NCBI GenBank assembly: GCA_001920415.1
Contig: MNJR01000019.1
Coordinates: 9,913-42,031 of the forward strand
Reading direction: 5' to 3'
DNA length: 32,119 nucleotides
From: Acidobacteria bacterium 13_1_20CM_3_53_8
Lineage (GTDB): Bacteria > Acidobacteriota > Blastocatellia > Pyrinomonadales > Pyrinomonadaceae
Shown piece by piece: positions 10,116 to 32,119 of this stretch. Below the pieces are notes generated by a model. That model was not told the DNA's origin. It searched no databases and saw only the letters and a program-made list of their open reading frames with translations. The first letter of the stretch is position 1; every line of letters begins with the position of its first letter. Made by a program: the position numbers and the translations under genes.

Positions 10116-10526
10116 CTTCTCTTTCCCTCCAAGTCGGTGTTTAGCCCAAAGGTTAAATCCTCCGCCTCTCAACCTGACGAACAGGTCGAATCAGGCAGAA
10201 GACAAGCGCAGGGAGAGAAATTTCTGAAAAGACTCTCCGCCTGATACTTGCCTCAGAGCTTTTTGGGGGTACGGTTTTCTCTGTAGGCTACTTTTATCAC
10301 AAAGAGCAGACGTAAAGCTATATTCTCTGCATCAATCCTGTATGGGGAAGAGTCTTCTGACCTCTGTGATTCATTCGAGTTTGAGAGGGTTGCCGGTTGA
10401 GATTCATCAAAAAACTTTTGCGGAAAAACCTGGGCGGGCTAAGTAGCTGAATTTTCAGACAGCTACGCTAGATTTCTCGTGATATGCTTCGTGTTACTGA
10501 AATCTTCCTTTCCGGGGAATGTAATT
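10116..10526. other. Divergent intergenic region, no gene seen
   Basis: Apart from the ribosome site of the leftward gene (10116-10130) and a modest GGGGA ahead of the OsmC remnant, I find no repeat, RNA or convincing promoter. It should hold the divergent promoters of the two flanking genes. Confidence 0.4.
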
Positions 10527-10897: not shown

Positions 10898-10917
10898 GCC
10901 GTCTTCGACGGCTTAAA
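10893..10917. repeat. Palindrome overlapping the OsmC stop codon
   Basis: TTTAAGCCGTC (10893-10903) and its complement (10907-10917) enclose a TTC loop. The core GCCGTCTTCGACGGC is identical to 369-383. The stop codon TAA lies in the left arm, so it may also end transcription of the remnant. Confidence 0.75.
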
Positions 10918-10950
10918 CCTTCTGGTCGCGTCCAGCATCATACAGATTCT

Positions 10951-12414
10951 ATGACTAAGCTATTCTTCACACGGCCTTTTTTCATGGCGCTGCTGTTTTG
11001 CCTGATAACATGCGCCGCGCCTGTGCGCTTTTTTCAAACTGGCTTCATCCAAACCACATCTTCGCAATCCATTAGCGATGACGCGCTCGCAAGCGTTCGT
11101 CGCATGGACAGCGCAGACCGCAATGCTCGCGGCGGTTTCTCGCTATTGCCAGCCTCAGAAAATCTGCGACGTGGAAACATATATCTCACCAACCGAGCAT
11201 TCGCAGAAGCGCGCGAACATTTTCAGACAATCGTTCAATCGAACCCGAACGACGTGAATGTCCCGGCTGCTCTGTTCGGCTTGGGTCGCGCCTATTTCGT
11301 GCCGCGTCTTTATGCTGAATCGCTCCCCTTCTTCGAGCGGCTCGCGCGCAACTACTCTTTCACGAAAGAAGGGCGCGAAGGTCTCTACGCTCTGGCGACA
11401 GCCCTTTTGCGCATGAGCCGGGCGGGTGAAGCGGTCGAGCGCTACATCGAATACACGCAAAAATTTCCGCAGGGCGAGCGCGCCGAAAGTTCTTACCTGA
11501 ATGTAATTGACGGGCTGCGCGAGGCCGGGCGTAACAGCGAGGCCGTTGACTGGATTGCGCGCACGCGCCAGAAATATCCGGGCACGGCGACAGACATAAA
11601 CGCGCTCTTCGCTCGCCTTCGCCTGGACATCTCTCAGAACGATTGGCAGCATGCGATTCAAACCGCAAATGAATTAAGCGGGAAGACTTTTCAGACCGGA
11701 GCGGTCACTAGCGCAGATGAGGTTGCTTATCTAAAGGCGTACGCGCTCGAACGAGCGGGGCGAACGAACGAAGCAATCAATGCGTACCTAGTCATACCTG
11801 ATTCGATTGATTCATATTACGGCGCGCTAGCCACAAAGCACCTATCGGCGATGAGTGCCGCGCGCCAACGTCCAGAAGTCGCTGCCAGAATCAATCGAGT
11901 GAATTCGCAAGCAACAACTTCATCTCAACTCTACCCTGCTCCTTACCGCGAGATAATCTTGCGCGCCACACGCGCTGGCCGTGTTGATCCAAGGCTTGTG
12001 CTAGCGATTATGCGGCGCGAGAGCAACTTTCGCTCCCTTGCGAAATCGCCCGCAGGCGCGCGCGGGCTTCTACAGCTTACGATAGATCAGGCATTGAAGT
12101 ATGCTGCGCAGGCGGGCGTTCAGAATTTACGCGAAGACGATCTCTACAGCCCAGATACATCAATCCGCGTCGGCAGCGCCTACCTTTCAGATTTGACGAA
12201 GCTTTTCGCGGACTCGCCAGAAGCGGTGGCCGCATCCTACAACGGCGGCGAGGACAACGTAGCTCGCTGGCTCAAACGCGCCCGTCAACAGGATGCAGGC
12301 GTCTTCGTAGCAGAGATCGGATTCCCCGAAACCAAAACCTACGTCCTCAAAGTTCTCTCCAACTACCGCGCATACAAGCTGCTCTATACATCTGATTTGA
12401 GAAGAAGCGCGTGA
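10951..12414 (+). CDS. Lytic murein transglycosylase (Slt-type) with N-terminal TPR-like region
   Basis: A 487-residue exported enzyme expected to cleave peptidoglycan glycan strands with formation of 1,6-anhydromuramyl ends. A signal peptide covers ~1-30 (FFMALLFCLITCAAPVRFF). A superhelical TPR-like region follows at ~70-300 (for example AREHFQTIVQSNPNDV, SLPFFERLARNY). The SLT domain covers ~330-470. The catalytic glutamate is E357 in IMRRESNF, followed by the family motifs SPAGARGLLQL and AASYNGGEDNVARWL. The build matches soluble lytic transglycosylase Slt70-type enzymes, though it is shorter. No Shine-Dalgarno sequence is obvious before the ATG. Confidence 0.93.
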   Translation: MTKLFFTRPFFMALLFCLITCAAPVRFFQTGFIQTTSSQSISDDALASVRRMDSADRNARGGFSLLPASENLRRGNIYLTNRAFAEAREHFQTIVQSNPNDVNVPAALFGLGRAYFVPRLYAESLPFFERLARNYSFTKEGREGLYALATALLRMSRAGEAVERYIEYTQKFPQGERAESSYLNVIDGLREAGRNSEAVDWIARTRQKYPGTATDINALFARLRLDISQNDWQHAIQTANELSGKTFQTGAVTSADEVAYLKAYALERAGRTNEAINAYLVIPDSIDSYYGALATKHLSAMSAARQRPEVAARINRVNSQATTSSQLYPAPYREIILRATRAGRVDPRLVLAIMRRESNFRSLAKSPAGARGLLQLTIDQALKYAAQAGVQNLREDDLYSPDTSIRVGSAYLSDLTKLFADSPEAVAASYNGGEDNVARWLKRARQQDAGVFVAEIGFPETKTYVLKVLSNYRAYKLLYTSDLRRSA

Positions 12415-12422
12415 TTAGATTA

Positions 12423-12528
12423 AGTCTGGAGTCTAGAGTCTGGAGTCTGGAGTCCGAGGTCAAAAGCAAGATTCTTTAAAATAGAATTCTTTATCTGCCT
12501 TTGACTCCAGACTCTAGACTCCAGACTT
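12423..12528. repeat. Word-repeat hairpin, family D (GTCTGGAGTCTAGAGTCTGGAGTC type)
   Basis: The left arm (12423-12457) is tandem GTCTGGA/GTCTAGA words. The right arm (about 12499-12528) is the inverse ACTCCAGACTCTAGACTCCAGAC, separated by an A/T-rich centre. It lies between the 3' ends of two convergent genes. The word GTCTGGAGTC also forms the outer arms at 15671-15801. Confidence 0.9.
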
Positions 12529-12532
12529 CCTT

Positions 12533-13441
12533 TTACGGCTCTGGAGAATAGCGGTGGCCGTCGAAGCCTGTGGCGCGCTCGCGGCGACGAATGGGGTCTG
12601 GATATGGACGCGGGCGCGGCAGCACTCCAAGACGTACGAGCGCGTCGTGGAATTCGTAGCGTATGTTCATCTCCGCTACCGGGCGCGGGATTAGCTCCAT
12701 GTTAACCCAACGCACGTCATTGTTGACGGAGCGGCCAATGCCCGTCGCTGCGTAGTCATCGTTTGGCTCTGCGCTCGGCCTTGCGCTTTCCACTCTGGCA
12801 GTGCCGCTTGATGCAGATGAGTTTGCGCGCGGTCTGGGCGCAGGCTGACCCTCTTCACGCTCATCATCCTGCGCTCGTGAAGAGCCTTGCTGCGGCGTCA
12901 CTATGATTGGACGGCGCTCGCGCTCGCGGAAGAAGACCGCAGAGATTACGCCAAGATTTTCCGTCTGACCTATTCGCGCGCCATATGAATCGGTTTCTGT
13001 AGTGAAGTAGAAGCGGCGAGCACGAGACGAACTCATCTGCCAGCCCGAAATCGTAATGGTCTGGTATGGGCCAATCACCCACTTGCTCGAGTTGAAGGCT
13101 GCTGTGTGTCGCGCGTCAATTGTGTTCAGTCCGTCAACGGCGAGCGCAACCGCTACGCGCACGCCTAGCGGGTTGTGAATGCGAAGCTCATATTCTTCGC
13201 CTTCTCGCGCTTCAACATAAGCTCTGCCACGCGCGCTATACTCTTCGAGCGGAACTCCGCCGACGAGGACTTCTACATCGAAGCCGCTCTCCTGCGGCGC
13301 AGGCTCGTAGTAACTTTCCTGCGGCTCTTCTATGGCGGTTTCGCCAACGTTCGCCTCTTCACGCTCAACTGAAAGAACTTTCGCTCCGATTACAAGCAGG
13401 CACGCGCTCGCTAAGAGAAGCGCTATCAGAATTTTCCTCAT
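12533..13441 (-). CDS. Secreted protein of unknown function with conserved beta domain
   Basis: 302 residues from the ATG at 13441, chosen because GAGGGAGG stands about 8 nt upstream and a signal peptide begins there (MRKILIALLLASACLLVIG); a longer frame reaches 13501. Residues ~55-175 form the only recognisable module: VEVLVGGVPLEEY, RAYVEAREGEEYELRIHNP, VRVAVALAVDGLNTID, PYQTITISGWQ and RRFYFTTETDSYGARIGQ, ending in NLGVISAVFFRE. I have seen this pattern in hypothetical secreted proteins, but I know no function for it. The rest is a low-complexity Arg/Pro/Ser-rich tail with a short conserved end (NNDVRWVNMELIPRPVAE). It lies alone between two rightward genes. Confidence 0.8.
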   Translation of the reverse strand: MRKILIALLLASACLLVIGAKVLSVEREEANVGETAIEEPQESYYEPAPQESGFDVEVLVGGVPLEEYSARGRAYVEAREGEEYELRIHNPLGVRVAVALAVDGLNTIDARHTAAFNSSKWVIGPYQTITISGWQMSSSRARRFYFTTETDSYGARIGQTENLGVISAVFFRERERRPIIVTPQQGSSRAQDDEREEGQPAPRPRANSSASSGTARVESARPSAEPNDDYAATGIGRSVNNDVRWVNMELIPRPVAEMNIRYEFHDALVRLGVLPRPRPYPDPIRRRERATGFDGHRYSPEP

Positions 13442-13712
13442 CACGGCTCCCTCCCTCAATCTCAAATTCCTGAGTTTCACGCACATTGAACGCTCGCCCA
13501 TAAATTTTCTTGCGAGAACCTAACATTTCTTTGATTAAAGGGAGGCGCTGGGCTGGCTGACATAGATTTCTAATACTTCTCAGGCTATTATTCTTCTTAA
13601 GCTTTACCCGAAAATCTGAAGACCCGGAGGGTGATTACTCACATTCGCAGGCCTGAGGTAACACCAGCAGACTTTGTCTGCCGATGAGATGATAAATGGC
13701 TGCGAGAGTGGC

Positions 13713-14304
13713 ATGAAAATTATGACGAGCGGGCAAGTGGTCGAGACTGGTTCGTTTTACGACAGGATTGCAGACCTCTATGACATCACTTTCAAGTTCA
13801 ATGGCTACAGCCGTTCGCTTGAGCATTTCCTACGCGAACACCCGCTGCCTCTGGAACCCGGCGCGCGTATACTGGATTCCCGTTCAGATTACAGCCATTG
13901 ACCTGTCTGCGTCGTCGCTTGTGAAAGCGAAGCGAGCGGCCAGAAAGAGTTTTTACAACGGGCACAAAGTCAACTTCGGTCAGGCAAACGTTCTAGCTCT
14001 TCCTTTCGCAAATGAATCTTTCGACATGGTTGTCACAAGCGGCGTGCTCGAATATGTTCCCTTGCAAGAAGGGTTCAGCGAACTTGCACGCGTCATTGCG
14101 CCCGGCGGTCATCTGCTTCACCTGCCCGTCATACCGACGGCGATGAGTAAGCTTCTTGAATTGATGTTTCGTTTCAAGACTCACCCGCCCGAAGAGGTCG
14201 AAGCGAACACACGAAAATTTTTCCGCATGATTGCCAACTATCGTTTCCCGCCGCTACACCCAATCGGTTGGACGAAGACCGCGATTCTTTCGCAGAAGAT
14301 ATAA
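13713..14304 (+). pseudogene. Class I SAM-dependent methyltransferase, inactivated by an internal deletion
   Basis: The first frame from the ATG at 13713 (MKIMTSGQVVETGSFYDRIA) reads like the start of a Methyltransf_11/25-type enzyme up to PLEPGARILD, where the glycine-rich SAM-binding motif (LGCGTG) should follow. Instead the frame hits a stop at 13899-13901. Similarity resumes one frame over near 13880 with ITAIDLSASSLVKAKRAARKS and continues through FANESFDMVVTSGVLEYVP and IAPGGHLLHLP to the stop at 14304. Some 15-20 residues with motif I are missing, along with the reading frame. The product could not bind SAM. A start at a TTG at 13674 is possible but unsupported. The gap 13442-13712 before it holds no other gene that I can see. 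Confidence 0.8.
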
Positions 14305-14336
14305 GATGTAATTTCAGAACAGAAGTTATACAACAT

Positions 14337-14458
14337 TTTGCGAGCTTATCTTTTAACTTTGCGCCTTTGCGAGAAACTGCAATTCTCTTAAAGCTCAAGA
14401 TAGAGATAGTTGAAGGTTCTCGCAAAGGCGCAAAGTTAAAAGATAAGCTCGCTAAGGT
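14337..14458. repeat. ~120-bp palindromic element, copy 1 of 4
   Basis: The arms run inward from GCGAGCTTATC through CTTTGCGCCTTTGCGAGAA and back out through TTCTCGCAAAGGCGCAAAG to GATAAGCTCGC. They surround a centre with GCAATTCTCTTAAAGCTCAAGA. It lies between the convergent methyltransferase remnant and the sugar dehydrogenase gene. Sister copies are at 18487, 20396 and 26348. Confidence 0.93.
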
Positions 14459-14468
14459 AATTTAGATA

Positions 14469-15659
14469 TTAACGGATTGGAACTAGCCGCAGAATGCGGT
14501 CGTCGTTTGCGGCGGGCGAGCCGCGACCGTCGTGGTTCGATGTTGAGAAATAGATTGCGCCTTCTGGGCCTTCTGCAATGTCGCGTATGCGCCCGAACTG
14601 TCCTTCAAGAAGATTCTCCTGACTAACGACCTGACGGCCATTCAGAACCACGCGAATAATTCTTGTTCCACGAAGGCAGCCGAAGAAGAAGTTGCCGCGA
14701 AACTCTGTGAAAGCCGAACCCCGATAGAACATGCCGCTCGCCGGCGCGCACGCGGGTGAGTATTCCAGCAGTGGCGAGACCATTCCTTCCTGCCTCTCTC
14801 TGTGATGAATAACAGGCCAGCCAAGGTTAGCGCCGCGCTCTACTAGATTGAACTCGTCGCCGCCCGACCCTAATCCTTCAAAGCCAGACGGGCCGTGCTC
14901 TGTCTCGAACATCACGTTCGTTCCCGGCTGCCAGTCAAAGCCCTGCGAGTTGCGGCTGCCCGTTGCCCAGATTTCAGGGCGCACATTTGGACGACCGACG
15001 AAAGGATTATCCTGCGGCACGCTCCCGTCGTCGTTTAGGCGAAGAATCTTTCCGACCAGTGAATCGAGCTTTTGGGAGAGTTCCCTGTGCGTGCTGTCGC
15101 CCGTGGAGATGTAGAGTTTACCGTCAGGCCCGAAGCGCAGGCGGCATCCGGCATGTAGCGGCGCTGCCGGAATATTTTCGATAATAACTTTCGGCTCGGT
15201 TAAGGCGCTGCCCGTTTCGTGATAGCGAACAACACGCACAAGCTGTTCGCCGTTTCCTCTATAAGCATAAGAGAGGTAGAGCAGATGATTGGAAGCGAAC
15301 TGCGGATGGAGCGCGAGTCCCATCAACCCGCTCTCGCCCGTAGGCTCAACGTCCGGGACTTTGAAGAGAGGCTCCGGTTTAAGCTTCCCATTTTCATAGA
15401 CGCGCACGCGCCCAGGTCTTTCCGTGATGAACATGCGACCGTCCGGCGCAAAGACGATTGACCAGGGGACTTCAAGATTCTCTGCGACCGTTTCGATGCG
15501 AAACTCAACACGGCTTTCCGGCGCGCTCACCACTTCGCCAGCGCCTTTGCCCGGCGGCGCGTGGCCGCAGGCAAAGGCAAAGATGATGATGAGCATGAAG
15601 AGAAAGCATGTAGGGAGTGTTCCCCTCATTCTTGAATGAAAGAATGGCTTTGTAATCAT
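14469..15659 (-). CDS. PQQ-dependent sugar dehydrogenase family (soluble aldose dehydrogenase type), exported
   Basis: A 396-residue six-bladed beta-propeller protein of the GSDH family (PF07995 type). It is expected to oxidise aldoses in the periplasm with PQQ or to act as a related propeller enzyme. The N-terminus has a hydrophobic signal (~residues 13-30) ending in FAFACGHAPP, so a lipoprotein is possible though the lipobox is not canonical. Family motifs are VPWSIVFAPDGRMFITERPGRV, GLMGLALHP, the catalytic-histidine region PLHAGCRLRFGPDGKLYIS, GPSGFEGLGSGGDEFN and NLGWP. A second copy of this domain is embedded in the giant protein at 20538-26309. No clear ribosome site supports the ATG at 15659; the ATG at 15629 is an alternative start. 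Confidence 0.92.
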   Translation of the reverse strand: MITKPFFHSRMRGTLPTCFLFMLIIIFAFACGHAPPGKGAGEVVSAPESRVEFRIETVAENLEVPWSIVFAPDGRMFITERPGRVRVYENGKLKPEPLFKVPDVEPTGESGLMGLALHPQFASNHLLYLSYAYRGNGEQLVRVVRYHETGSALTEPKVIIENIPAAPLHAGCRLRFGPDGKLYISTGDSTHRELSQKLDSLVGKILRLNDDGSVPQDNPFVGRPNVRPEIWATGSRNSQGFDWQPGTNVMFETEHGPSGFEGLGSGGDEFNLVERGANLGWPVIHHRERQEGMVSPLLEYSPACAPASGMFYRGSAFTEFRGNFFFGCLRGTRIIRVVLNGRQVVSQENLLEGQFGRIRDIAEGPEGAIYFSTSNHDGRGSPAANDDRILRLVPIR

Positions 15660-15670
15660 CCTGAAAAATA

Positions 15671-15801
15671 GTCTGGAGTCCGACTGATTTTAGATTTTAG
15701 ATTTTGGATTTTTGATTGAAAGAGAGCTTGTTACTAATCTTCAATCCGTTCGCCAATCGAAAATCGGCAATCCAAAATCCAAAATCGCTCTGACTCCAGA
15801 C
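15671..15801. repeat. Nested word-repeat hairpins, families D (GTCTGGAGTC) and E (GATTTTAGATTTTGG)
   Basis: The outer arms GTCTGGAGTC(CGA) at 15671-15683 and TGACTCCAGAC at 15791-15801 enclose inverted tracts of GATTTTA/GATTTTGGATT words (15686-15720 against 15740-15786). The outer word equals that of the element at 12423, so two families are nested here. Confidence 0.9.
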
Positions 15802-15804
15802 TTT

Positions 15805-16230
15805 TTACTGTGAAATGTAGTCATGAAGTAATTTGAGTTCGTCTCCCTGTTCGCCCACTTCCACGCGCAGCAGGTCGCGTATGGACAACATGCCGACCCA
15901 GCGATCTTCGTCGAAGACTGGCAAATGGCGGCTGCCTATCTGCTCCATCCTCATAATTGCGTCGTGCGGGCGTTCGTCGCAGCGTATAATGGCGCGCGGC
16001 TCGTTCGCAATCGCGCTCACTTTTACGTCCGCCGGGTTCAGATTTTCAGCCACGACCTTTTTGAGAATGTCGCGCTCCGAAAGCACACACTGTAGCTGCC
16101 CATCATCGTCAACGACGCAGACAGCGCCAATGTTGCGCGCGGCCATGAACTGCGCGGCTTCAAGCACAGTCTGCGAAGCGTGCACGGAGTAACCCTCGCG
16201 GTCACTTATAACATCTCTTATAAGAATCAT
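15805..16230 (-). CDS. Two-CBS-domain protein
   Basis: 141 residues from the ATG at 16230, placed there because GGAGGGAG precedes it by about 9 nt and the CBS fold begins at once (MILIRDVISDREGYSV). The open frame to 16470 adds 80 residues that are translated repeat DNA (FYLFTFAFLL). The two CBS motifs are visible: ...TVLEAAQFMAARNIGAVCVVD with LSERDIL, and PHDAIMRMEQIGSRHLPVFD with LSIRDLLR. Such tandem CBS proteins bind adenine nucleotides and sense energy state or act as regulators; the partner here is unknown. Confidence 0.92.
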   Translation of the reverse strand: MILIRDVISDREGYSVHASQTVLEAAQFMAARNIGAVCVVDDDGQLQCVLSERDILKKVVAENLNPADVKVSAIANEPRAIIRCDERPHDAIMRMEQIGSRHLPVFDEDRWVGMLSIRDLLRVEVGEQGDELKLLHDYISQ

Positions 16231-16301
16231 GGGGAAGCTCTCCCTCCTGATTAAGTTTTCCCGGAAGTTTTGGGTATTATAGATGAAAAGCGAGACGAAA
16301 C

Positions 16302-16337
16302 AAGGCAAAAGGAAGGCAAAAGTAAAAAGGTAAAAGG
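16302..16337. repeat. Word-repeat arm, family F (AAGGCAAAAGGTAAAAG type), left arm
   Basis: Tandem AAGGCAAAAGG / AAAAGTAAAAAGGTAAAAGG words. The inverse arm is at 17402-17432, about 1.07 kb away, with the DUF1801 gene between them. The other word hairpins of the window have their arms only 15-50 nt apart. Confidence 0.85.
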
Positions 16338-16624
16338 AAGGCTGAAACCATTCTTTATTAAATGGCTTCTGTCCGTAACTATTCAGGAGGCAGACCTCTA
16401 GATTAGTTTTGCTTCTTTTTCCTTCAGTCTCTTTCTTGATTTGAGGAGGTCCAGTAACTGGCTTTAGCATCGAAGCGCAGGCATCATCTTCGTTCCACCG
16501 AATACACTTTTGATGACTTCCATGGTCGTGCGAGACCAGTCCGGTACGACTGCGGGCGATGCGCGGCTCGACGCCGTGGGGACATGGAGGCGGAATTCTG
16601 GATTTTCTCCGACCTCACGGTGAG
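16338..16624. other. Intergenic stretch, no confident gene
   Basis: From about 16490 the base composition becomes more GC-rich and continues so through the DUF1801 gene. Only short open frames are present and none is convincing. Confidence 0.4.
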
Positions 16625-16641
16625 TTACTTCGAAGTAACTC
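16622..16641. terminator. 20-bp perfect palindrome at the DUF1801 stop codon
   Basis: GAGTTACTTC and its exact complement abut with no spacer; the stop codon TAA lies inside. There is no T-tract, so a terminator role is only possible. Confidence 0.35.
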
Positions 16642-17164
16642 GGCTGACTTTCTGCCTCGCCGGGGTCTTCTTGGCCGGTGTGCGCGTCTTGGCCGCGGGT
16701 TTAGCTTTCCCTTTGCCCATCGCGTCACGCATAGCCTGATAGCCAGCAATGTATTCCGAGACCGGGAGCCTGGCCACCGTGCTCTCAACCACATCCAGCG
16801 CAAGCTCCGGCAGCGTCTTGAAACGGAGGCAGCCCTTGCCCATATCCAGCTTCTTGCCGCTCTTTGCGTATTGCGCCTTGAACCACTCCAACAGCCCCGG
16901 CTGACCGTAGAAGCAAATCATGTGCAGCGCCATGTACGATTTCTGTGACGCCAGGCTGATAAGCGTTAGGGGCTGCTTGGGGTTGCCGCCATAGCCAGCT
17001 GGGTACGTGTCGAGCGGAACGAACCAGCTGATCATGCCGAACTGGATTCCTTCTTGGTATCCCGGTGGCAGGGCCCGGTTGATTCCCCGGCGGACTTCGT
17101 TCAACGCGTCACGGCGCTCCGCGGAGAGTGCGGCAAGGTATTCGGTCACAGTGGATGCTGGCAT
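16625..17164 (-). CDS. DUF1801 (YdhG-like) domain protein with basic Ala/Pro/Lys tail
   Basis: 179 residues. Residues ~5-135 match the DUF1801 pattern: VTEYLAALSAERRDALNEVRRGI, the Trp-containing GMISWFVPL, LISLASQKSYMALHMICFY, then GKGCLRFKTLPELALDVV. The last ~35 residues are a Lys/Ala/Pro/Thr-rich tail (GKGKAKPAAKTRTPAKKTPA), often seen appended to this domain in acquired genes. The family's molecular function is unknown; members have an iron-binding-like fold. The gene is richer in GC than its neighbours and is bracketed by the two halves of one inverted repeat, which suggests a separate origin. A start at 17164 gives a complete domain, but there is no good ribosome site. Confidence 0.88.
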   Translation of the reverse strand: MPASTVTEYLAALSAERRDALNEVRRGINRALPPGYQEGIQFGMISWFVPLDTYPAGYGGNPKQPLTLISLASQKSYMALHMICFYGQPGLLEWFKAQYAKSGKKLDMGKGCLRFKTLPELALDVVESTVARLPVSEYIAGYQAMRDAMGKGKAKPAAKTRTPAKKTPARQKVSRVTSK

Positions 17165-17401
17165 GGGCCAAGTCTACCGTAACGGTTTTGACGGGGCAAC
17201 TGTAATCCAGAGAGGCGCGCGTTTTGGCTAAGCCAACAAATCCTCGTCGTCACAGTTTCGGCAGTCATTCATGCAACCTCGGTCATCAAATCCCAGAGGC
17301 GGTGTCTTGCATGTGAGACAGGGCGGGCCACCCGAGGTCAGTAGTCCGCTCACCATTAGCCCGGCACGTCGAGGAAGACCTGAACAGTTACTCTGTCCGC
17401 A

Positions 17402-17432
17402 CTTTTGCCTTTTTACTTTTACCTTTTGCCTT
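17402..17432. repeat. Word-repeat arm, family F, right arm
   Basis: CTTTTGCCTTTTTACTTTTACC words, the inverse of 16302-16337. It runs into the stop codon (17431-17433) of the radical SAM gene. The stretch 17165-17401 before it holds no gene I can support; TTGGCTAAGCCAA (17228-17240) is a minor palindrome. Confidence 0.85.
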
Positions 17433-18456
17433 ATTCAAAGAGGCTGGCCTGCGCGGACGGTCTGCGAAAGGTCGTGGGGCGCGATTCCGAATAAGAGCCT
17501 GCCTCTTTTTTATTAAAACCCAATCGTTCGCAATGGACTTTGAAAAGGTTTTCAATCGCGCGCCAGTATTCCCCTTGGCCGCGCATGCGCTCGCCGAACT
17601 CGCTTGAATTCAGATGGCCTCCGCGCGCATCCCTTATGCGCCGCATCACGCGCTCTGCTTTCGTCGGTAAGCTCGCGCGCAGACGCTGCTCGAAATAGGG
17701 AGCGACGTTTCCGGGCAGACGCAGTATGCTCATGAAAGATTGACGCGCACCGGCCTCCCAGGCGCGCTTGAGAAGTTCTGGAATCTCCGTTGTGAGTCCA
17801 AGAATCACAGGGGCAATTCCAATTCCCACACTGATTCCTGCCTCTGCTAATTCTGACATAGCTTCAAACCTTGCGTCGGGCGACGGCGCGTAAGGCTCAA
17901 GCGCGCGCGCTATCTCGTAACTCGTGAACGGAATTGTGAAGAAGACTGAAAGCTCAGCCTCGCGCGCCAGTTCTCTTAACAAATTTTTGTCGCGCCGTAT
18001 GAGAGCGCTTTTGGTCACAATGCCGACGGGGTTGCGAAACTCAAGACAGACTTCAAGACATTTTTGGGTCAATTTGTAGTTGCTTTCGAGCGGGATGTAA
18101 GGGTCTGAGGTGAACGAGAAGACAAGCGTGTCGCCACGCCAACTCTTTCGCATCAACTCTTCGCGCAGCAGTTCAGGCGCTCTGATTTTAGCAACAATCT
18201 TTCGCTCGAAGTCTGTGCCCGCGCCGTAGCCAAGGTATTCATGTGTGGGACGACTGAAGCAATATGTGCAGGCGTGTATGCAGCCGCGATAGCAGTTGAC
18301 CGAGAAATCGAAACCTACATCCGGGCTTTTATTGTGCGTTATGATAGAGCGCGTCTCGGTCTCCTCGAACACTTCAAGCTCTGCGCGCGGCGGCTCGCCT
18401 ATCCACTCTACAGAGTGAGTGAGCCAGGGGTTCGGAGGGTTTGCAATGTAGCGCAT
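17431..18456 (-). CDS. SplB-like radical SAM protein (COG1533, PA0069/Rv2578c-type)
   Basis: 341 residues. The radical SAM cluster motif is [10 protein letters not shown] (CxxxCxxC) at about residues 58-67, followed by the group-specific [23 protein letters not shown]. Later landmarks are [23 protein letters not shown] and [11 protein letters not shown]. The family is related to spore photoproduct lyase, but the substrate of this branch is unknown and no endospore genes are nearby. Length is typical. The ATG at 18456 has no Shine-Dalgarno sequence; TAAATT lies 5 nt upstream, which could be a leaderless -10, but no good -35 accompanies it. Confidence 0.92.
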
Positions 18457-18486
18457 AAGAAAATTTAAGAGGACATTTCAGAATAC

Positions 18487-18609
18487 CTTAGCGAGCTTAT
18501 CTCTTATCTTTGCGCCTTTGCGTGAACCTGCAATTTACATGAATCTTGAGCATGGAGAGAAGTGATGGTTCACGCAAAGGCGCAAAGGGAAATGCTTAAG
18601 CTCGCAAAG
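18487..18609. repeat. ~120-bp palindromic element, copy 2 of 4
   Basis: Left arm GCGAGCTTATC...CTTTGCGCCTTTGCGTGAAC; right arm GTTCACGCAAAGGCGCAAAG...CTTAAGCTCGC. The centre holds GCAATTTACATGAATCTTGAGC, partly inverted relative to the centre of the other copies. It lies between two leftward genes. Confidence 0.93.
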
Positions 18610-18622
18610 CGTGGAGCGTCGC

Positions 18623-18838
18623 CTAAACCTTTTCCAGAGGCAGAACGGATTCAATCGTGTGGAGCAGGATAAAGACGCGGTCAGTTTCGCCCTCGTCACT
18701 CTTTATGGCGAGCGAAACGTAGTCGTTCGTTATCTCTCCAACCACGCCGTCATAGACGCCGCCGGAGATGGTCTTCACAGTAACCTCTTCTCCTTTGAAA
18801 CGTCGGAAAAGATTTTCCACATGCTGCAAGTTCATCAT
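18623..18838 (-). CDS. Small Sm-like/SH3-type beta-barrel protein
   Basis: 71 residues (70 if the second ATG is used, which sits better behind GAGG). A short helix (NLQHVENLFRRF) is followed by five likely beta strands: GEEVTVKTIS, GVYDGVVGEIT, DYVSLAIKSD, DRVFILLHTIESVLPL. This helix-plus-barrel order is that of Sm/Hfq-like proteins, but the Hfq RNA-binding signature is not evident, so RNA binding is only a possibility. It stands upstream of the radical SAM gene with a repeat element between them. Confidence 0.7.
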   Translation of the reverse strand: MMNLQHVENLFRRFKGEEVTVKTISGGVYDGVVGEITNDYVSLAIKSDEGETDRVFILLHTIESVLPLEKV

Positions 18839-18875
18839 TAGCCTCTAGCCTTAATGTTCAGACTGAAATAAAATC

Positions 18876-19247
18876 TTATTCTTCCGCTCCCCACGTGACG
18901 AAGAACAGGCGATACTTGTCAGGGTCTTCGATAGTGACGAAGGATGCGCCCCAGCCTTCGTCCACAGGCGGCGAGATTTTTATGTCGCGCCCTTTCAACC
19001 TTTCGTAAAAAGCGTCAACGTCTCGGACACCAATGAAGAAGTGAACGCCGCGCCCGCGCCTCAACATTGTTTCGGGCTGCTCCGCCAGACTTAACTTCAA
19101 ACTTCCGGCTCTGAGCGTTGCCACAGGAGGCTCAGATTCCGCGTTGTGCGATTCGATCGTGAACCCAAGCTCTTCCGCATAGAAACGTAGCGATTCTTCA
19201 AGCTTGTTGACTTCCAAGAACAGAACGTCTAGACCAGTGAACTCCAT
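18876..19247 (-). CDS. VOC (glyoxalase/bleomycin-resistance fold) family protein
   Basis: 123 residues with the typical single VOC unit pair: LDVLFLEVNKLEESLRFYAEELGFTIE, then LSLAEQPE, HFFIGVRDVDAFYERLKG and the closing GWGASFVTIEDPDKYRLFF. Metal-binding positions cannot be assigned with certainty, so the activity is unknown (dioxygenase, lyase or binding protein). It starts 24 nt after the J-domain gene on the same strand, so the two are probably co-transcribed. Confidence 0.9.
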   Translation of the reverse strand: MEFTGLDVLFLEVNKLEESLRFYAEELGFTIESHNAESEPPVATLRAGSLKLSLAEQPETMLRRGRGVHFFIGVRDVDAFYERLKGRDIKISPPVDEGWGASFVTIEDPDKYRLFFVTWGAEE

Positions 19248-19271
19248 CGCTTAGGGAAACTTTCTGTGCGG

Positions 19272-19853
19272 CTAGACCGCGCTCAGAAGCAGATAGACTC
19301 CGTATCCTGCCGCGCAGACCACAGACCAGAATAGCGCCTCCTGCAACTTTGTGTAGCGCCGCGCAGGATGCGTTTGAGCTAAGGATTCGCGCGCGGCTAT
19401 CATTGCTCCGCGCGCCATCATCACGCCGAACAGGATTACGAAGAAGGCCAGCATGCCCATAGGCCATAGAAACCACATCCACTGAAAGCGAACCAGGAAG
19501 AGTAGAACCAGTCCTATAGCCGAACACAAGATAGCGCCAGCAATCTTGCCATAAATCATGTCCGCTTCGGCTGAAGGCGAAGAGTAAGGCGGCCTATCTC
19601 TTTCAACAACGATTCGAGTCCGCTCAGAGTTGGTCGCTCTCTTCCTTTCAGCATCGTAGGCGCGCCTTCTTGCTTCGTCACGCAGAACACCGTAGGCTTC
19701 GTTCAGAGATTTCATCTCCTCTTCGTCGCCGCCTCTGTCCGGGTGGTGGCGTGTCGCGCGTCGCTTGTACTCGCGCTCTATCTCGCTGCGCGTCGCATCC
19801 TCTTGCGCGCCCAGGATAGAGTAGTAATCTTTCTCCGCATAGAACTGCCCCAT
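19272..19853 (-). CDS. Membrane-anchored J-domain protein
   Basis: 193 residues. An N-terminal J domain (residues ~8-68) has the obligatory HPD (37-39) in ATRHHPDRGGDEEEMKSLNEAYGVL. A charged linker follows, then about three hydrophobic segments (~100-118, ~122-145, ~170-190). It lacks the Gly/Phe, zinc-finger and C-terminal domains of DnaJ, so it should recruit DnaK to the membrane or to a membrane client. A promoter with its -10 box 9 nt before the ATG supports this start. It is the first gene of a likely two-gene unit with the VOC gene. Confidence 0.9.
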   Translation of the reverse strand: MGQFYAEKDYYSILGAQEDATRSEIEREYKRRATRHHPDRGGDEEEMKSLNEAYGVLRDEARRRAYDAERKRATNSERTRIVVERDRPPYSSPSAEADMIYGKIAGAILCSAIGLVLLFLVRFQWMWFLWPMGMLAFFVILFGVMMARGAMIAARESLAQTHPARRYTKLQEALFWSVVCAAGYGVYLLLSAV

Positions 19854-19862
19854 ATTTTATGG

Positions 19863-19891
19863 ATTTTAGTTTTGCGCCCACGCTTTTGCAA
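19863..19891 (-). promoter_or_regulatory. Sigma-70-type promoter of the J-domain gene, near-leaderless
   Basis: On the minus strand, TTGCAA (891-886 of the 19-kb block), a 17-nt spacer and TAAAAT (868-863 of that block) are followed by 9 nt and the ATG at 19853. The predicted leader is 0-3 nt. No Shine-Dalgarno sequence is present. Confidence 0.55.
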
Positions 19892-19899
19892 TCCAAAAA

Positions 19900-19982
19900 C
19901 AGTTTTCAGTTTTTAGTTTTCAGTTTTCAGTTAAAATCAGCTAGCATCTTTCTGAAAACTGAAAACTAAAAACTGAAAACTG
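19900..19982. repeat. Word-repeat hairpin, family A, second copy
   Basis: The same perfect 31-bp arms as at 3304 (here 19900-19930 and 19952-19982) with a different 21-nt loop. It separates the promoters of two divergent genes and ends 14 nt before the next ATG. Confidence 0.93.
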
Positions 19983-19996
19983 CTTTAAGGGGGGTT

Positions 19997-20353
19997 ATGG
20001 CGCAACCGTTTTCGCCCGGCGACGATCTTCTTTTTCAACTCGAAAGCGGCTTCGGATTGCTGCGCGTGCTGGCTGTTGAAGAGACGGGCGGGCAGGCTGT
20101 CTGGCATCTTCTGGCTTATGAGGAGTTCTTCCCGGACGCCGAATCCGCCGAGGCTGCTCTATCAAAGCACGGCGCGTTACACGTGCGCGCCCCGCACATG
20201 GCTCTAACAGATCGCGCGTTCGAGAGAACTCCGGCAGCACTCTTGGGCAATCGCCCTGTGAGTGAAGATGAGTTGCGGGCTTATCGTGATTGGAAGAGCA
20301 AGGGCGGCGAAGTATCAGATCGCTCTGCGCTTTTGATGCTGGGCTTTCGCTAA
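19997..20353 (+). CDS. Small conserved-looking protein of unknown function
   Basis: 118 residues; a strong AAGGGGGG site precedes the ATG by 2-3 nt. It opens with a predicted beta-barrel-like segment (FSPGDDLLFQLESGFGLLRVLAVEE, then AVWHLLAYEEFFPDAESAE) and ends in a charged helical part (SEDELRAYRDWKSKGGEVSD). The opening faintly recalls the start of Imm26-like proteins, but no toxin gene is adjacent and I would not name it so. Confidence 0.7.
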   Translation: MAQPFSPGDDLLFQLESGFGLLRVLAVEETGGQAVWHLLAYEEFFPDAESAEAALSKHGALHVRAPHMALTDRAFERTPAALLGNRPVSEDELRAYRDWKSKGGEVSDRSALLMLGFR

Positions 20354-26603: not shown

Positions 26604-28061
26604 TTAACCCAAAAATCCAAGGTTCGACGACGGAAATCTGCTGAGGAACGGGAAGACCGTCGGGAGATCGGACTGGGCCAACCCGTACCAAGTGGCAAGC
26701 GTCGCTGCGTACTGGTCAATGGAAGTTGAAGGTATCCAGCGCCCGCGATTGTCTGTGTCGTCAGGCCCGCCTAGAGCGAGCGTCGGATATTTTCCGTAAA
26801 AATCTCCGCCGTGAATAGCGCCGCCCATTATGAACGCATGATTGCCCCACGCGTGATCCGAGCCTACGGTGCCTGAGCCTGAGCCTGAAGGCTGGAACGT
26901 GCGCCCGAAGTCAGAGAGCGTGAAGGTCACAACGTTGTTCTGAATATTCTGCGCTACAGTCTCGTCGTAGAAAGCTCGCATTGCAGTGCTCAGTTGGAAC
27001 AGCAGGCTTCCCTGATTGCCAGAGCCTGCCGCGCCGCCCGCAGTGCTCGTAGGACTTGAGCCTGTCTGCTGAGTGTGCGTATCGAACCCGCCGAGCGTGC
27101 AGAAGAATATCTGCCGCTTCATGCCGAGCGTGTCGCGGAACTTCATGAGTCTAGCAACCTGCTTTAACTGATTTCCAAGAGAAGTGTTTGGGAAGGCCGT
27201 CACAACATCTTGTTGACTTGAACTAAGCGCTGCGCTTGTACTCAATGCTTGATTAGTTGTATCGCTCGAAGCCTTAATCAAAGCTCTGTCCAGATCAAAT
27301 CCCAGTAGTTGCGCGAACGTATTCCTGCGCGCCTGTTGATCCGAGAGCGTGCCCCCAAACATATTCAGAACAAGAACCTGGTTGAGTGAAGTCGGCGCTG
27401 GCGAGATTGCTAGTTGCCGACTGGTTTGACCCGTGGCGAAGAGGCTAGTGCCCGCGACTGAAACGTTCATGGGAAGCGGAACGATGCCATTAAGAGCGCC
27501 TGTGAAATCCGCTACGCGCCCGCCCCAGCCCGTCTGGCTTGGATTGTTAGAGATGGAAGCCTGCTGCTGCGCAACCTGATCCGAGTGCGAGAAAAGTTGA
27601 TAGGGGCGTCCCGTTCCGCTCTGATACTGCGTGCGCGTCAACGGCTGCACGAGCGTGCCTACATTGCAGAGCACAGCGAGCTTCTGTTGATTCCATAGAT
27701 CGAGCAGACCCTTGAACGTAGTTGTCGGGTTGGCAACCTCCGGCGAAAGATTCGGATGAAGACCGAACTGACGACCGCTTATAGGCGAGATGGGAAGAAG
27801 TACCTGCTGCGATAACGCTAGCTGCGCGGTGCTGCGTACACTCGAATAAGAGTTGTACTCGGAGTCTAGCGGTATGATTGTGTTGTTGCAATCGTTGCCG
27901 CCGCTCAGGAAGATGCAAACGAGCGCTCTATAATCGGAAGCAACGTCCGACGTTTGCGCCATAGCGCTTATCAAGTTGAGTTGATCAAGGCTTGCGACCA
28001 GTGCCGCGCCCGTCAGCGCGCATCCCGTCTGCTGCAAAAATTTTCTGCGTGATTGTGCCAT
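26604..28061 (-). CDS. DUF1501 family protein, Tat-exported
   Basis: 485 residues. The N-terminus is a twin-arginine signal (SRRKFLQQTGCALTGAALVASL). The remainder is a full DUF1501 domain of the alkaline phosphatase/sulfatase superfamily: YRALVCIFLSGGNDCNNTIIP, LHPNLSP, LAVLCNVGTLVQPLTR, GGFDTHTQQ, VTFTLSDFGRTFQPSGSG and GSDHAWGNHAFIMGG. The aspartate/histidine residues of these motifs suggest a metal site, but the substrate is unknown. DUF1501 genes nearly always follow a DUF1800 gene, as here (gap 89 nt, same strand), and the two proteins probably act together at the envelope. Confidence 0.94.
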   Translation of the reverse strand: MAQSRRKFLQQTGCALTGAALVASLDQLNLISAMAQTSDVASDYRALVCIFLSGGNDCNNTIIPLDSEYNSYSSVRSTAQLALSQQVLLPISPISGRQFGLHPNLSPEVANPTTTFKGLLDLWNQQKLAVLCNVGTLVQPLTRTQYQSGTGRPYQLFSHSDQVAQQQASISNNPSQTGWGGRVADFTGALNGIVPLPMNVSVAGTSLFATGQTSRQLAISPAPTSLNQVLVLNMFGGTLSDQQARRNTFAQLLGFDLDRALIKASSDTTNQALSTSAALSSSQQDVVTAFPNTSLGNQLKQVARLMKFRDTLGMKRQIFFCTLGGFDTHTQQTGSSPTSTAGGAAGSGNQGSLLFQLSTAMRAFYDETVAQNIQNNVVTFTLSDFGRTFQPSGSGSGTVGSDHAWGNHAFIMGGAIHGGDFYGKYPTLALGGPDDTDNRGRWIPSTSIDQYAATLATWYGLAQSDLPTVFPFLSRFPSSNLGFLG

Positions 28062-28116
28062 CGTTTTTCCGTTTCGATTTTAACTCTTCAATTTTAAGTT
28101 TCCAGTCTAGTTCTTT

Positions 28117-28147
28117 CTGAAAACTGAAAACTAAAAACTGAAAACTG
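28117..28147. repeat. Word-repeat family A, single arm
   Basis: Exactly the 31-bp right arm of the hairpins at 3304 and 19900, here without its partner, inside the 89-nt gap of the DUF1800-DUF1501 unit. The left part of the gap (28079-28110) is a different A/T-rich word tract. Confidence 0.88.
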
Positions 28148-28150
28148 CTT

Positions 28151-30412
28151 TTACCTCTGAACCTGATATTGCGACGAACTCGCAATGAGATAGATAGCCG
28201 TCTGCGCTCGCCAATCCGGGTTCGCGTTGGTAACGTTAGTCACGTTCGTCACAATCGAATTCTTCATCGCCTGCGACATAGTGCCGTGCATCAAGAGTTG
28301 ATTGAGCGCATCAACAAGCTGCGCAGGATTGCCAGCCATAGCCTGATAAGCGGAGTAATCAATCTTCGTCCCCGTAGGTCTGTCCGACGACGCAGGATTG
28401 CCCGCAATAGGCGGTGTGATAGGCAGAAAGCCGTTGCCGCTATTGGCAAGCACCAGCGCGTTGATGAAATTGGCGCGCTTGAAGGTAGTCGTTGTTGAAA
28501 GTATTCCGAATTCGGGGCCGAACAGTGCGGACGTTCCCGGCACTTGATAGTCAGCCGGGAAATAGCTGAAGACTGTCGGCGGGTTGAATAGGTCTTGCCC
28601 CATGTCAAGTAGAAGGCCGAACCTTGTTCCGTTGTTGGAAATATTTCCGTCCGTAGTCGCGTTGAAAGCGCGCAACAGATTCGTCGTCAACAGCACAGGC
28701 TCGCGCAGGTGTCCGTAGTTCGGGTCAGACTTGACATCGCCGCGCGACTCGGGGTCAAGCAGTATTGCAGTGATGGCTGCTTTCATGTCGCCGCGCACGC
28801 CAGCGCCGTTGTCATTGAAGGCAGCGGCCACGCGCTGAACATATGCGGGCGATGGATTGCTCGTCACCAATTGACTGATTAATGCTTTGGCGATGAAGGG
28901 GCCTGTGTTCGGATTGTTGAAGATGTTATCAATCGCCGCATTAAGCTCAGCCGTCTTGTACTGTCTAAGGTCTTGCCCTGCTGTAATCGCAGGCAGAACC
29001 TGACCGTTCAAAAGCGTCTTCGATGCTGTGTCGTATGTGCTGGTGTTGTTCGACAGCGCCATAGAGTCAATGTAGTTGGGCACGGGCGCGGTTGCGCCAG
29101 TCTTCGGGTTAGTCCAGGTCTTATTCGGCGAAAGATTCCAGCCCGTGAAGACGCGCGCGAAGTTTGTAATCGTAGCCTGATCGTAAGTCGATATGCGGTT
29201 GCCGTTCGCATCAAGCTTAGGAGTACCATCCGCGTTCAACGAATCAACGCCAACCGAGAAGAGTTGCAGAATCTCGCGCGCGTAGTTTTCGTTCGGGCTT
29301 ACACGTGAATTTCCGCGCATGTCCAGGTATTCCCCCATGCCCGGATTCAAAGTCACGTCCATCAATATCTGCCGAAAGTTTCCAAAAGCATTTCGGTCAA
29401 ATACCTGAAGATAAGGAGCGACCCATGCGGGCTGGTTGTTGAGGTCTCGCCCCGAAACGATCAGAATTTTATGAAGAGCATAGGCCACGCGCTGCCTGAG
29501 TTGATCCTGCCCGTTTCTAGCGTTCTGGAAGAACATAATTTGAAGCGGGTACATAGAATAGTTATCACGGAAGCACATAGTGCGCTCCGCAAGGACAGGG
29601 TAATCTGTAGCTGAGCATCCAACCTCTGTATCTGTTGGAAAGAGATTTAAAGTCGGATAATTAGTAGAGCCTACTGGCGCTGCTGCGAATTGTTCATTCA
29701 AGTAAGCGCGGAATCCAACGCTCCGAACGTGCGCTAAATCTGAAGATGTCGGCCCCCATGTCGCTTGCTCAAGAAAGCGAACGCCGTCGCCGCCAGCCGC
29801 AAGCGCAGGGTCTGTGTACGGGTTTTGCGCAGGCGCTGGAATCGGAGCGGGCGGAGTCTGCGGCGCAGGCGTAGGCACTGCGCCCTGATCGTCCGTAGGC
29901 CCACCGCCCACGTGCCCTATAGCAACGCGCACACGGTTGCTCGCCATGCCGTGTAGGTTAAGTCTTATGAGCACATCACCCATGTCTGCGGGCATCTGAT
30001 CGTTGAGCCGCACTATGAATTCTGTGATTCCTTCAAAGCCGGGCACTGGCGACATGTACTCTACGTTGAGCGTATAGCGCGTCGTTGCGCCATTCACAAC
30101 TGCTTCCGCATCCGCAGAGAAAGCGTTGACGCCCTCGCCCGCAATCGTGTCCAGGTTCATAGCGAAGATTATGATCCGCGTACGATTGTCTGCGCTAAAA
30201 GGCACAATCTGATTCGGCGTGAAAGGCTCTGACTTGAGCGTAACGGATTCTACGGCAACGGCGCGCGTGGAATCGTTATTGCTGAGAAGCACAGGCCCGA
30301 CGCCCGGCGCTGCTTGCAACGAGTTGACAGATGAGCAGAGCGCTAGCGCGGCGCATGCGCAAAGAAGCCTCAGAAGGCATGGGCGCAGGCACAGTAGAAA
30401 ATTCTTTTTCAT
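28151..30412 (-). CDS. DUF1800 family exported protein
   Basis: 753 residues. Signal peptide ~1-34 (LLRLLCACAALALCSSVNSLQA). An N-terminal beta domain (~40-165) is followed by a Pro-rich linker and then the helical DUF1800 domain (~200-750): RFLEQATWGPTSSDLAHVRSVGFRAYLNEQF, RQRVAYALHKILIVS, GNFRQILMDVTLNPGMGEYLDM, the signature NENYAREILQLFSVG and FTGWN, later DPESRGDVKSDPNYGHLREPV. Its function is unknown; members are paired with DUF1501 across Acidobacteria, Planctomycetes, Bacteroidetes and Proteobacteria. It is the upstream gene of the pair. No clear ribosome site is seen before its ATG. Confidence 0.94.
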   Translation of the reverse strand: MKKNFLLCLRPCLLRLLCACAALALCSSVNSLQAAPGVGPVLLSNNDSTRAVAVESVTLKSEPFTPNQIVPFSADNRTRIIIFAMNLDTIAGEGVNAFSADAEAVVNGATTRYTLNVEYMSPVPGFEGITEFIVRLNDQMPADMGDVLIRLNLHGMASNRVRVAIGHVGGGPTDDQGAVPTPAPQTPPAPIPAPAQNPYTDPALAAGGDGVRFLEQATWGPTSSDLAHVRSVGFRAYLNEQFAAAPVGSTNYPTLNLFPTDTEVGCSATDYPVLAERTMCFRDNYSMYPLQIMFFQNARNGQDQLRQRVAYALHKILIVSGRDLNNQPAWVAPYLQVFDRNAFGNFRQILMDVTLNPGMGEYLDMRGNSRVSPNENYAREILQLFSVGVDSLNADGTPKLDANGNRISTYDQATITNFARVFTGWNLSPNKTWTNPKTGATAPVPNYIDSMALSNNTSTYDTASKTLLNGQVLPAITAGQDLRQYKTAELNAAIDNIFNNPNTGPFIAKALISQLVTSNPSPAYVQRVAAAFNDNGAGVRGDMKAAITAILLDPESRGDVKSDPNYGHLREPVLLTTNLLRAFNATTDGNISNNGTRFGLLLDMGQDLFNPPTVFSYFPADYQVPGTSALFGPEFGILSTTTTFKRANFINALVLANSGNGFLPITPPIAGNPASSDRPTGTKIDYSAYQAMAGNPAQLVDALNQLLMHGTMSQAMKNSIVTNVTNVTNANPDWRAQTAIYLIASSSQYQVQR

Positions 30413-30891: not shown

Positions 30892-31866
30892 ATGAGCAAA
30901 TTGCTTTACTTCGCGGGAGCGATAATTCTTTGCCTTGCTATGGCAAGCGTGTCGCTCGCGCAAACCACTACAACCATCACGACGACACCTACGCAAACGA
31001 CACAGACAACAGCCGTGCAGAACGCTGACGGCTCATGGTCGGTCGTAGAGTATCCTGTCGGTCGTGAAGTTCAGGTGAACTTAACTCCTGTGGGAACCAT
31101 CACGGGACTTAACGGAACGGCGACAGTGCTGCGCGCTGCTGATGGTTCGACGATCAAGTTAAACTTGACAGGAGTTCCCGCTAACCTGACGACTGTGAAT
31201 CTCTACGCCGTTGATCCGACGGGCGCGGTGACTATGCTTGGGCCTATCACGGTCAATAACGGCACAGGAACGTTCACGACAACAACTCCGCTCACCCGGT
31301 TCATGCTCTTCGCATCGCCCGAGACCAACCTGACTTCCTATTCCGCAACAGCGCCTATGATCTTCAGAAGCGGCGTGCCGGAAGGGCTGGCGGTTATTCC
31401 TTTGGCGAGGACAGGTGAAGGCCCCGGTGCTGCAACCGGAGAAAGAGTAGCGGCGACGGCTGCGCCTTCTTATAGCATCCCGATGCTTGGCATAGCTTCC
31501 TTCCCGAAGAAGAAAGAGACAACTATGCACCTGAACGTCGCTGACACTTTCCATCTACGCCGCGCGACCGTCTTCATTACGCCCAACTTCAACGACCAGG
31601 GCGCGACGCGCGTGAAGGCGAAATTCCATGAACTGTCAGATGTTCAGCAGGGAGCCTACCTGACGCTGTGGGCTGTTGGGCCTGATGGCAGTTTCATGAA
31701 TCTAGGCTCGACAACGAACACGGGTCATCCGAACGTTGCGACGATTGATACGGACAGGAACCACACCAACGTTCCTTTCACAGACTTCGGACTCTTCATG
31801 ACTGTTGAGCCGAGCGGCACGGTTAAAACACCGTCCGGCCCGATTGTCGTGAGGATAATCCAATAG
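30892..31866 (+). CDS. Secreted protein with a duplicated RskA-like (anti-sigma-K C-terminal type) domain
   Basis: 324 residues from the ATG at 30892, which lies 7 nt after AGGAGGAG; an ATG at 30886 is too close and the frame to 30832 lacks support. The signal peptide is MSKLLYFAGAIILCLAMASV, with cleavage probably at SLA-Q. A Thr-rich linker (~24-40) follows. Two similar halves (~45-155 and ~205-320) share the order LTGVPANLTTVNLYAVDPTG.. / LSDVQQGAYLTLWAVGPDG.., then M(L/N)LG, then FxLFxxxE. The end, KTPSGPIVVRI, resembles the end of RskA extracytoplasmic domains (PTGPIVL). There is no transmembrane helix or zinc-finger anti-sigma part, so it is not itself an anti-sigma factor. It is preceded by a sigma-54-type promoter and followed by a terminator, so it forms its own unit. 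Confidence 0.75.
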   Translation: MSKLLYFAGAIILCLAMASVSLAQTTTTITTTPTQTTQTTAVQNADGSWSVVEYPVGREVQVNLTPVGTITGLNGTATVLRAADGSTIKLNLTGVPANLTTVNLYAVDPTGAVTMLGPITVNNGTGTFTTTTPLTRFMLFASPETNLTSYSATAPMIFRSGVPEGLAVIPLARTGEGPGAATGERVAATAAPSYSIPMLGIASFPKKKETTMHLNVADTFHLRRATVFITPNFNDQGATRVKAKFHELSDVQQGAYLTLWAVGPDGSFMNLGSTTNTGHPNVATIDTDRNHTNVPFTDFGLFMTVEPSGTVKTPSGPIVVRIIQ

Positions 31867-31902: not shown

Positions 31903-31942
31903 GAAGAAGGCTGCCGAGCTTGATGACAGCCTTCTTCTTTTT
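31903..31942 (+). terminator. Rho-independent terminator
   Basis: A perfect 11-bp stem GAAGAAGGCTG/CAGCCTTCTTC (31903-31913, 31927-31937) with a 13-nt loop, followed by five T. A second small palindrome (AACTGCTATT-C-AATAGCAGTT, 31875-31895) lies just before it. Confidence 0.88.
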
Positions 31943-31961: not shown

Positions 31962-32003
31962 TCGGGGCGAGAGGATTTGAACCTCCGACCTTTCGGTCCC
32001 GAA
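31962..32003 (-). other. 3' fragment of tRNA-Pro (anticodon CGG), probable att site
   Basis: In the minus direction the sequence starts at an anticodon loop (TTCGGGA, anticodon CGG). It continues with the anticodon 3' stem CCGAA, variable loop AGGTC, T arm GGAGG-TTCAAAT-CCTCT and acceptor 3' strand CGCCCCG with discriminator A. CCA is not encoded. The 5' half is absent: neither CGGGGCG nor a D arm occurs in the following ~115 nt up to the window edge. A clean break at the anticodon loop is the usual footprint of a tyrosine-recombinase integration into a tRNA gene. By tRNA orientation, the integrated element should lie to the right, with the intact tRNA-Pro at its far end. Confidence 0.75.
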
Positions 32004-32092
32004 TCAAAAACTTAACCTAAACCCAACCAATTGATTTTGAAGCGGAACGCAGCCACGCACAAAATCAAGCGTTTTTCATCTACTGACATCTG

Positions 32093-32119
32093 TTACTCTT
32101 TAGTCACCATCGTTATCTC
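32093..32119 (-). CDS. Possible C-terminal end of a gene (integrase?), truncated by window edge
   Basis: Eight codons (EITMVTKE) and a stop at 32095-32093, about 90 nt from the tRNA-Pro fragment and pointing toward it. The position is where an integrase gene would be expected, and short V/T/K-rich tails are common in phage-type integrases. The sequence is too short to identify. Confidence 0.2.
   Translation of the reverse strand, partial: EITMVTKE

Follow-up and report, generated by a model that had tools for sequence, protein, structure and literature searches.

The window, i.e., the whole stretch of 32,119 nt that was analyzed (G000:C71:9913-42031), extends to the last base of its contig (C71; 42,031 bp). 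Host backbone genes are located at 6909..20353, with 11 of them being collinear with the region downstream of the tRNA-Pro(CGG) gene in a relative (G006; tblastn, L091 and L146). DUF1501 and DUF1800 genes (26604..30412, minus strand; Pfam) belong by synteny also to the tRNA-Pro(CGG) locus of three relatives (G009, G048, G055). The last host gene is encoded on the plus strand (30895..31866) and its product carries a C-terminal RskA_C domain (Pfam PF10099, 30.9 bits). This product has matches (E <= 0.001) in 22 of 40 genomes including the present one, several of them covering the C-terminal part only. Downstream of this gene a terminator-like hairpin followed by a T run (31903..31937) can be read directly from the sequence. 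PADLOC yielded weak HTH-type and similar matches only.

The terminator-like structure is followed by a 42-nt fragment of a tRNA-Pro(CGG) gene in minus-strand sense (31962..32003), after which 116 nt (32004..32119) remain to the contig end. The fragment corresponds to positions 34-75 of the tRNA, counted from its first base, and is identical (42/42) to C139:30956-30997. This second copy lies within the only complete tRNA-Pro(CGG) gene that was found in the genome (C139:30923-30998), and the identity extends to 44/44 once two flanking bases are added. The tRNA-Pro(TGG) gene on contig C2 agrees with the fragment in 40 of 42 positions. As read from the sequences, the 7-nt anticodon loop (TTCGGGA), which is enclosed by the stem TTCGG/CCGAA, begins with position 34. 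A 22-nt probe derived from the fragment (up to three mismatches) gave one match in the window and 0 in 100 shuffles. As ARAGORN called no tRNA in the window, the 5′ half of the tRNA-Pro is missing at this site. An earlier note on this DNA had described an intact segment from the anticodon loop to the acceptor end of a tRNA-Pro lacking its 5′ half, and had expected a full tRNA-Pro(CGG) with the same 42 nt. All of this is borne out, with the full gene being located on a different contig of this genome.

The 116 nt beyond the fragment, which would form the element-side arm beside the crossover, have similar copies at two other sites. Window positions 32017-32118 are 81% identical to C139:35996-36096. 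The arm also resembles the prophage end that adjoins the 5′ half of a tRNA-Pro(TGG) gene on contig C86 (local score 44; 1000 shuffles: 16.1 ± 2.3, largest 28; reversed control: 13), and this similarity is located at nearly equal distance from the crossover in both cases. The copies on C139 and C86 are only weakly similar to each other (score 27 vs. a shuffle maximum of 29). Within the genome, the tip of C71 (up to three mismatches) occurs on C71 and C139 only. No match to the arm was obtained in the 39 other genomes searched, nor was its 30-nt pattern found in viral contigs. The arms at the fragments of C2, G009 and G048 (two) are unlike the one in the window (scores 16-19; shuffle means 15.7-17.3). 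A coding function of the arm was considered and rejected, as the reading frames are not kept between its three copies; the arm is therefore treated as non-coding or decayed. A putative decayed tRNA fragment beside the copy on C139 was likewise rejected, with 116 of 2000 shuffles being at least as good under the best scheme.

The complete tRNA gene and the DNA beyond it

Upstream of the complete tRNA-Pro(CGG) gene, C139 contains SurE, PCMT (pcm) and VTT-domain (DedA-type) genes (Pfam). Past the tRNA about 8 kb extend to the contig end (C139:30999-38985), encoding a TPR/Fis-type regulator, a DDE transposase, an HTH_38/rve transposase, an ion-channel fragment, a DUF6880 SWIM protein, an HU-like protein and an HTH protein. 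The GC content of this stretch is 0.506 compared to 0.533-0.534 in its flanks, and none of 15 ORFs queried from it had a protein match (E <= 1e-5) in 30 loci of relatives. A PHROGs search with six of its proteins revealed no phage structural protein, which counts against a mobile element at this site. The TPR/Fis-type gene, which directly follows the tRNA, is a member of a multicopy family, for which matches were obtained in 17 of the 40 genomes (including the present one). The regulator alone is thus no proof of mobility, and part of the stretch could be host DNA.

Synteny with relatives

Ten tRNA-Pro(CGG) loci of relatives, each extending 5 kb or more past the tRNA on its 3′ side, were compared with the two contigs. 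Genes of C71 share the locus with the tRNA in five of them (G006, G009, G019, G048, G055), of which four carry pcm on the same contig as well. Within the stretches covered of the other five loci (G002, G007, G017, G021, G044) C71 genes were not found, which speaks against an element between the two contigs. The clearest arrangement is that of G006, in which pcm, tRNA-Pro(CGG) and 11 C71 genes are present in an order and orientation as if the right end of C71 had once adjoined the tRNA of C139. No 3′ fragment is found among the two tRNA matches of G006. A comparison with a relative lacking the element had been proposed as a check in the earlier note, and G006, with the tRNA and host genes of the window in one locus and no 3′ fragment, gives a positive outcome. 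The earlier assignment of everything left of 31962 to the host and everything right of it to the element is likewise supported by the synteny. In G006 the genes nearest to the fragment (20538-31866) are not located at the corresponding place, which argues against the element, and the tRNA is directly followed by homologs of two genes from the far left of C71, which indicates a certain degree of rearrangement in this region. The order and orientation from the tRNA to the 3′ fragment, whose contigs are separate in the assembly, are deduced from the synteny with G006, G019 and G055.

On their other side the relatives exhibit the order rdgB, tRNA-Pro(TGG), HU gene, and then genes of C2 and C71. 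The HU gene is present in 8 of 11 TGG loci that lie beside rdgB and whose anticodons were read by eye; as these loci were chosen for tRNA and rdgB matches lying side by side, the adjacency of rdgB is a biased count. Judged from gene order, the contigs would thus run C86 - C2 - C71 - C139.

Several relatives show insertions of their own at tRNA-Pro(CGG). In the genus of G009 (L086 6845-14820) and G048 (L087, L088, L099) the 3′ fragment, a segment (8 kb in G009) and the complete tRNA-Pro(CGG) gene form an inverted block, which is flanked by the same DedA-type and DUF1800 genes. On one contig of G048 two fragments are separated by about 76 kb, which suggests a tandem array. In G007 (L089 5526-6085) and G017 (L090 5706-6417) a complete tRNA-Pro(CGG) gene is followed by a small ORF, after which tRNA positions 46 to 77-78 are present once more. 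This mini-insertion of about 0.5-0.6 kb duplicates the tRNA tail. Its ORF, encoding cysteine/histidine motifs, has a length of 148 aa in G007 and is apparently broken in G017. By its motif the G007 ORF may be HNH-like, a label that a Pfam search of this gene did not support.

Integrases and related elements

The genome contains 13 PF00589 matches, which are distributed over 11 contigs. Neither C71 nor C139 carries one, a result that weighs against the element. Eight integrase contigs, some of which were covered in part, contain no exact copy of the tip of either C71 or C139; contigs C70 and C41 were examined around their PF00589 match. An integrase cut off by the end of contig C28 was considered as a candidate for the CGG element and was not assigned to it. 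Its best relatives are encoded by G017 C32 (64%, next to tRNA-Pro(GGG)) and G049 C40 (55%, next to tRNA-Met), followed by G048 C244 (48%, next to tRNA-Pro(CGG)) and G017 C118 (49%, next to tRNA-Pro(GGG)). In this integrase family (L172 to L198) a complete tRNA gene, namely Pro, Met, Ala, Ser or Thr, is present within the stretch covered in 18 of 27 loci, and the stop codon of the G048 member (L174) lies at most 19 nt from the 3′ end of the tRNA.

A comparable pattern is present on a single contig elsewhere in the genome. C2 carries a tRNA-Pro(TGG) fragment (40307-40348), a PF00589 integrase (40560-41726) and the complete tRNA at the right end. All four proteins of this segment that were scanned match phage families in PHROGs (tape measure, terminase small subunit, minor tail, primase/helicase). 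The C2 element (C2:40307-50227, L007) has a size of about 9.7 kb.

The 42-nt pattern was also found in a single viral contig (IMGVR_UViG_3300020020_000099, L164; IMG/VR), at positions 5083-5124 and with 40/42 identity to the window. A PF00589 integrase (31.4 bits) ends 85 nt before this segment, and terminase and portal genes are encoded as well. As the stretch examined contained no tRNA gene, the segment is the apparent attP of a tRNA-Pro-targeting phage. At the tip of C71, the possible 3′ gene tail reading toward the fragment that the earlier note had pointed out is indeed present on translation (32093..32119, minus strand; EITMVTKE-stop). Its stop is spaced 89 nt from the core, compared to the 85 nt in L164, and its residues are, as judged by eye, unlike the end of the L164 integrase. 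That this 27-nt tail might be a candidate for the end of an integrase gene is a guess.

Origin of the fragment

With a probability of roughly 0.88, the fragment at 31962-32003 represents the far, host-side attachment-site half of a mobile element that was inserted by a tyrosine integrase in the anticodon loop of tRNA-Pro(CGG). Such an element would have brought along a 3′ half of the tRNA of its own. Upon insertion, the tRNA-Pro(CGG) gene would have been rebuilt at the pcm-DedA side of the element (C139:30923-30998), and the original 3′ half of the host would have moved to the far side, which is now 31962-32003. The identical 42-nt copy in the sole tRNA-Pro(CGG) gene found, the start of the fragment at the anticodon loop and the host synteny are direct observations that support this reading, as does the fit of the fragment's polarity with the order tRNA, element, 3′ fragment. 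It is further supported by the five of ten CGG loci that hold C71 genes, with G006 having 11 of them in order in the absence of a 3′ fragment. The 8 kb of C139 following the rebuilt tRNA likewise point to an insertion, with their lower GC content, two transposase genes and the lack of any match in the 30 loci. Finally, C2 displays the full pattern on one contig, and in L164 the segment is located shortly past the integrase stop. The claim of the earlier note that the fragment marks the edge of an integrated element is thus supported by both the identical tRNA copy and the synteny of relatives. As a tRNA island boundary at the anticodon loop, the fragment is of an ordinary type, and scars of this kind are well known. 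The location of the two proposed ends on different contigs (C71 and C139) counts against this reading.

Most likely, the element runs from the C139 stretch to the end of C71 and is phage-like. The C139 part and the 116 nt of the window are presumably the ends of one element or of a tandem array, with a length of at least 8.1 kb (at least 7987 + 116 bp) if both were joined. The integrase would then be expected in the unsequenced middle between these parts.

It is possible, although rather doubtful, that the fragment is an old scar of an earlier integration, with the element being mostly or wholly deleted or scrambled by insertion sequences and no intact element following to the right. The two transposases and short pieces on the C139 side, the second copy of the arm within that stretch and the lack of a linked integrase would agree with such a decay. 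Yet, the fragment still shows full identity to the tRNA, while a functionless copy should drift, and the possible degenerate remnant of a second fragment next to the arm on C139 did not reach significance. Far less probable is an assembly artifact, by which host DNA would have been joined to the end of an element via the 42-44-nt exact repeat, with the real host continuing into the complete tRNA. The fragment starts 158 nt from the contig end and lies within a 44-nt exact repeat, and a false join of this kind would mimic two integrated junctions in place of an empty site and a free element. However, the repeat and the arm would still need to exist as attP and hence require an element, and the same layout is found within single contigs on C2 and in G009. 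A chromosome rearrangement, in which recombination (inversion) between tRNA genes rather than integration had generated the fragment, is the least probable explanation. In its favor, the block in G009 has the opposite orientation with respect to the same flanks, and inversion between tRNA genes driven by an integrase is described for archaea in the available part of one publication (PMC5495485). In the present genome, however, both the orientation and the flanks correspond to those of G006, G019 and G055 with no inversion being needed.

With the insertion of an element in tRNA-Pro(CGG) being the preferred reading, the end point of one mobile element is fixed in a little-studied lineage (Pyrinomonadaceae) and four contigs of a draft genome are put in order. 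In addition, tRNA-Pro genes appear as repeated insertion targets, as both the CGG and the TGG gene were hit in this genome and the CGG gene also in G009 and G048.

Prophage on C86

On C86 the situation is reversed: the tRNA half in the window is a 3′ half, the one on C86 a 5′ half. This 5′ half of tRNA-Pro(TGG) stands alone (C86:30068-30114; L085:4954-5000), adjoining a prophage, with rdgB upstream as in the relatives. Six of eight prophage proteins scanned match PHROGs, mostly tail families; no match was obtained for the 1822-aa frame or for the 83-aa gene nearest to the tRNA. This 83-aa gene, the last one of the prophage, has no relative in viral contigs, and the pattern of the tRNA 5′ half was not found in viral contigs either. 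The complete tRNA-Pro(TGG) gene on C2 has its own promoter-like region, which differs from that on C86 (promoter-like boxes upstream of tRNAs were read by eye). The C86 side shares 84% identity with a 118-bp stretch at the right end of C2 that includes this promoter-like region together with 46 nt from the 5′ half of the tRNA. No match to rdgB was obtained with the final 108 nt of C2, which is a weak test for such a short stretch. These data would fit a prophage that brought promoter and 5′ half, with the two contigs not being joined.

Tentatively, related prophages may have entered two tRNA-Pro genes of one genome in opposite orientations, although this appears unlikely at present. Phage ends of the same kind would then adjoin the 3′ half of tRNA-Pro(CGG) in the window and, on C86, the 5′ half of tRNA-Pro(TGG). 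In the latter case, the rebuilt gene on C2 would have received a new promoter and a 5′ half (C2:50074-50227) from the phage. As the stem of the anticodon arm reads identically in both directions (TTCGG-loop-CCGAA), a single integrase core could fit in either orientation, which could allow a phage lineage to switch from carrying a tRNA tail to carrying a tRNA head. In the available part of a review, the anticodon loop with its palindromic stem is likened to the lambda core site, and a rebuilt bacterial tRNA gene is stated to keep its original promoter with very few exceptions (PMC8371274). Islands with a 5′ fragment are a minority class (159 of 3919), according to the available part of the Islander publication (PMC4383910). 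In the part of the open-licence literature that was covered, no publication on one phage lineage integrating in both orientations was found. If this reading is true, a switch of elements between 3′-carrying and the rarer 5′-carrying integration would be explained by the symmetrical anticodon arm.

Comparison with known systems

The element proposed for tRNA-Pro(CGG) has a close counterpart in the same genome. The C2 element shares with it the kind of target, the loop and the combination of a fragment with a complete tRNA, whereas its arm is unrelated (score 16 vs. 15.7 for shuffles). The segment of L164 starts at the same loop base as the fragment; however, beyond the 42 nt this viral contig has no match to the last 219 nt of the window at E <= 1. 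pSAM2 of Streptomyces and phage 16-3 of Sinorhizobium integrate into tRNA-Pro genes as well. These are other elements in other hosts.

Among the 3919 islands of Islander, 3760 have a 3′ fragment and 2083 are anticodon-centered, as given in the available part of the source (PMC4383910). The criteria stated there are a tRNA and its fragment on the same replicon, a fragment extending from a known crossover subsite to the end of the tRNA, a location of the 3′ fragment downstream of the tRNA in equal orientation, an integrase gene between them and a size of 2 to 200 kb (PMC4383910). In the present case, a complete tRNA and a fragment of the same gene occur within one genome (C139 and C71), with the fragment starting at such a subsite and extending to the tRNA end. 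Islander-type 3′-fragment islands thus share with this locus the complete tRNA, the displaced 3′ fragment and the crossover at the anticodon loop, whereas here the two ends are located on different contigs, the length would be at least 8.1 kb if they are joined, and no integrase was found on either contig.
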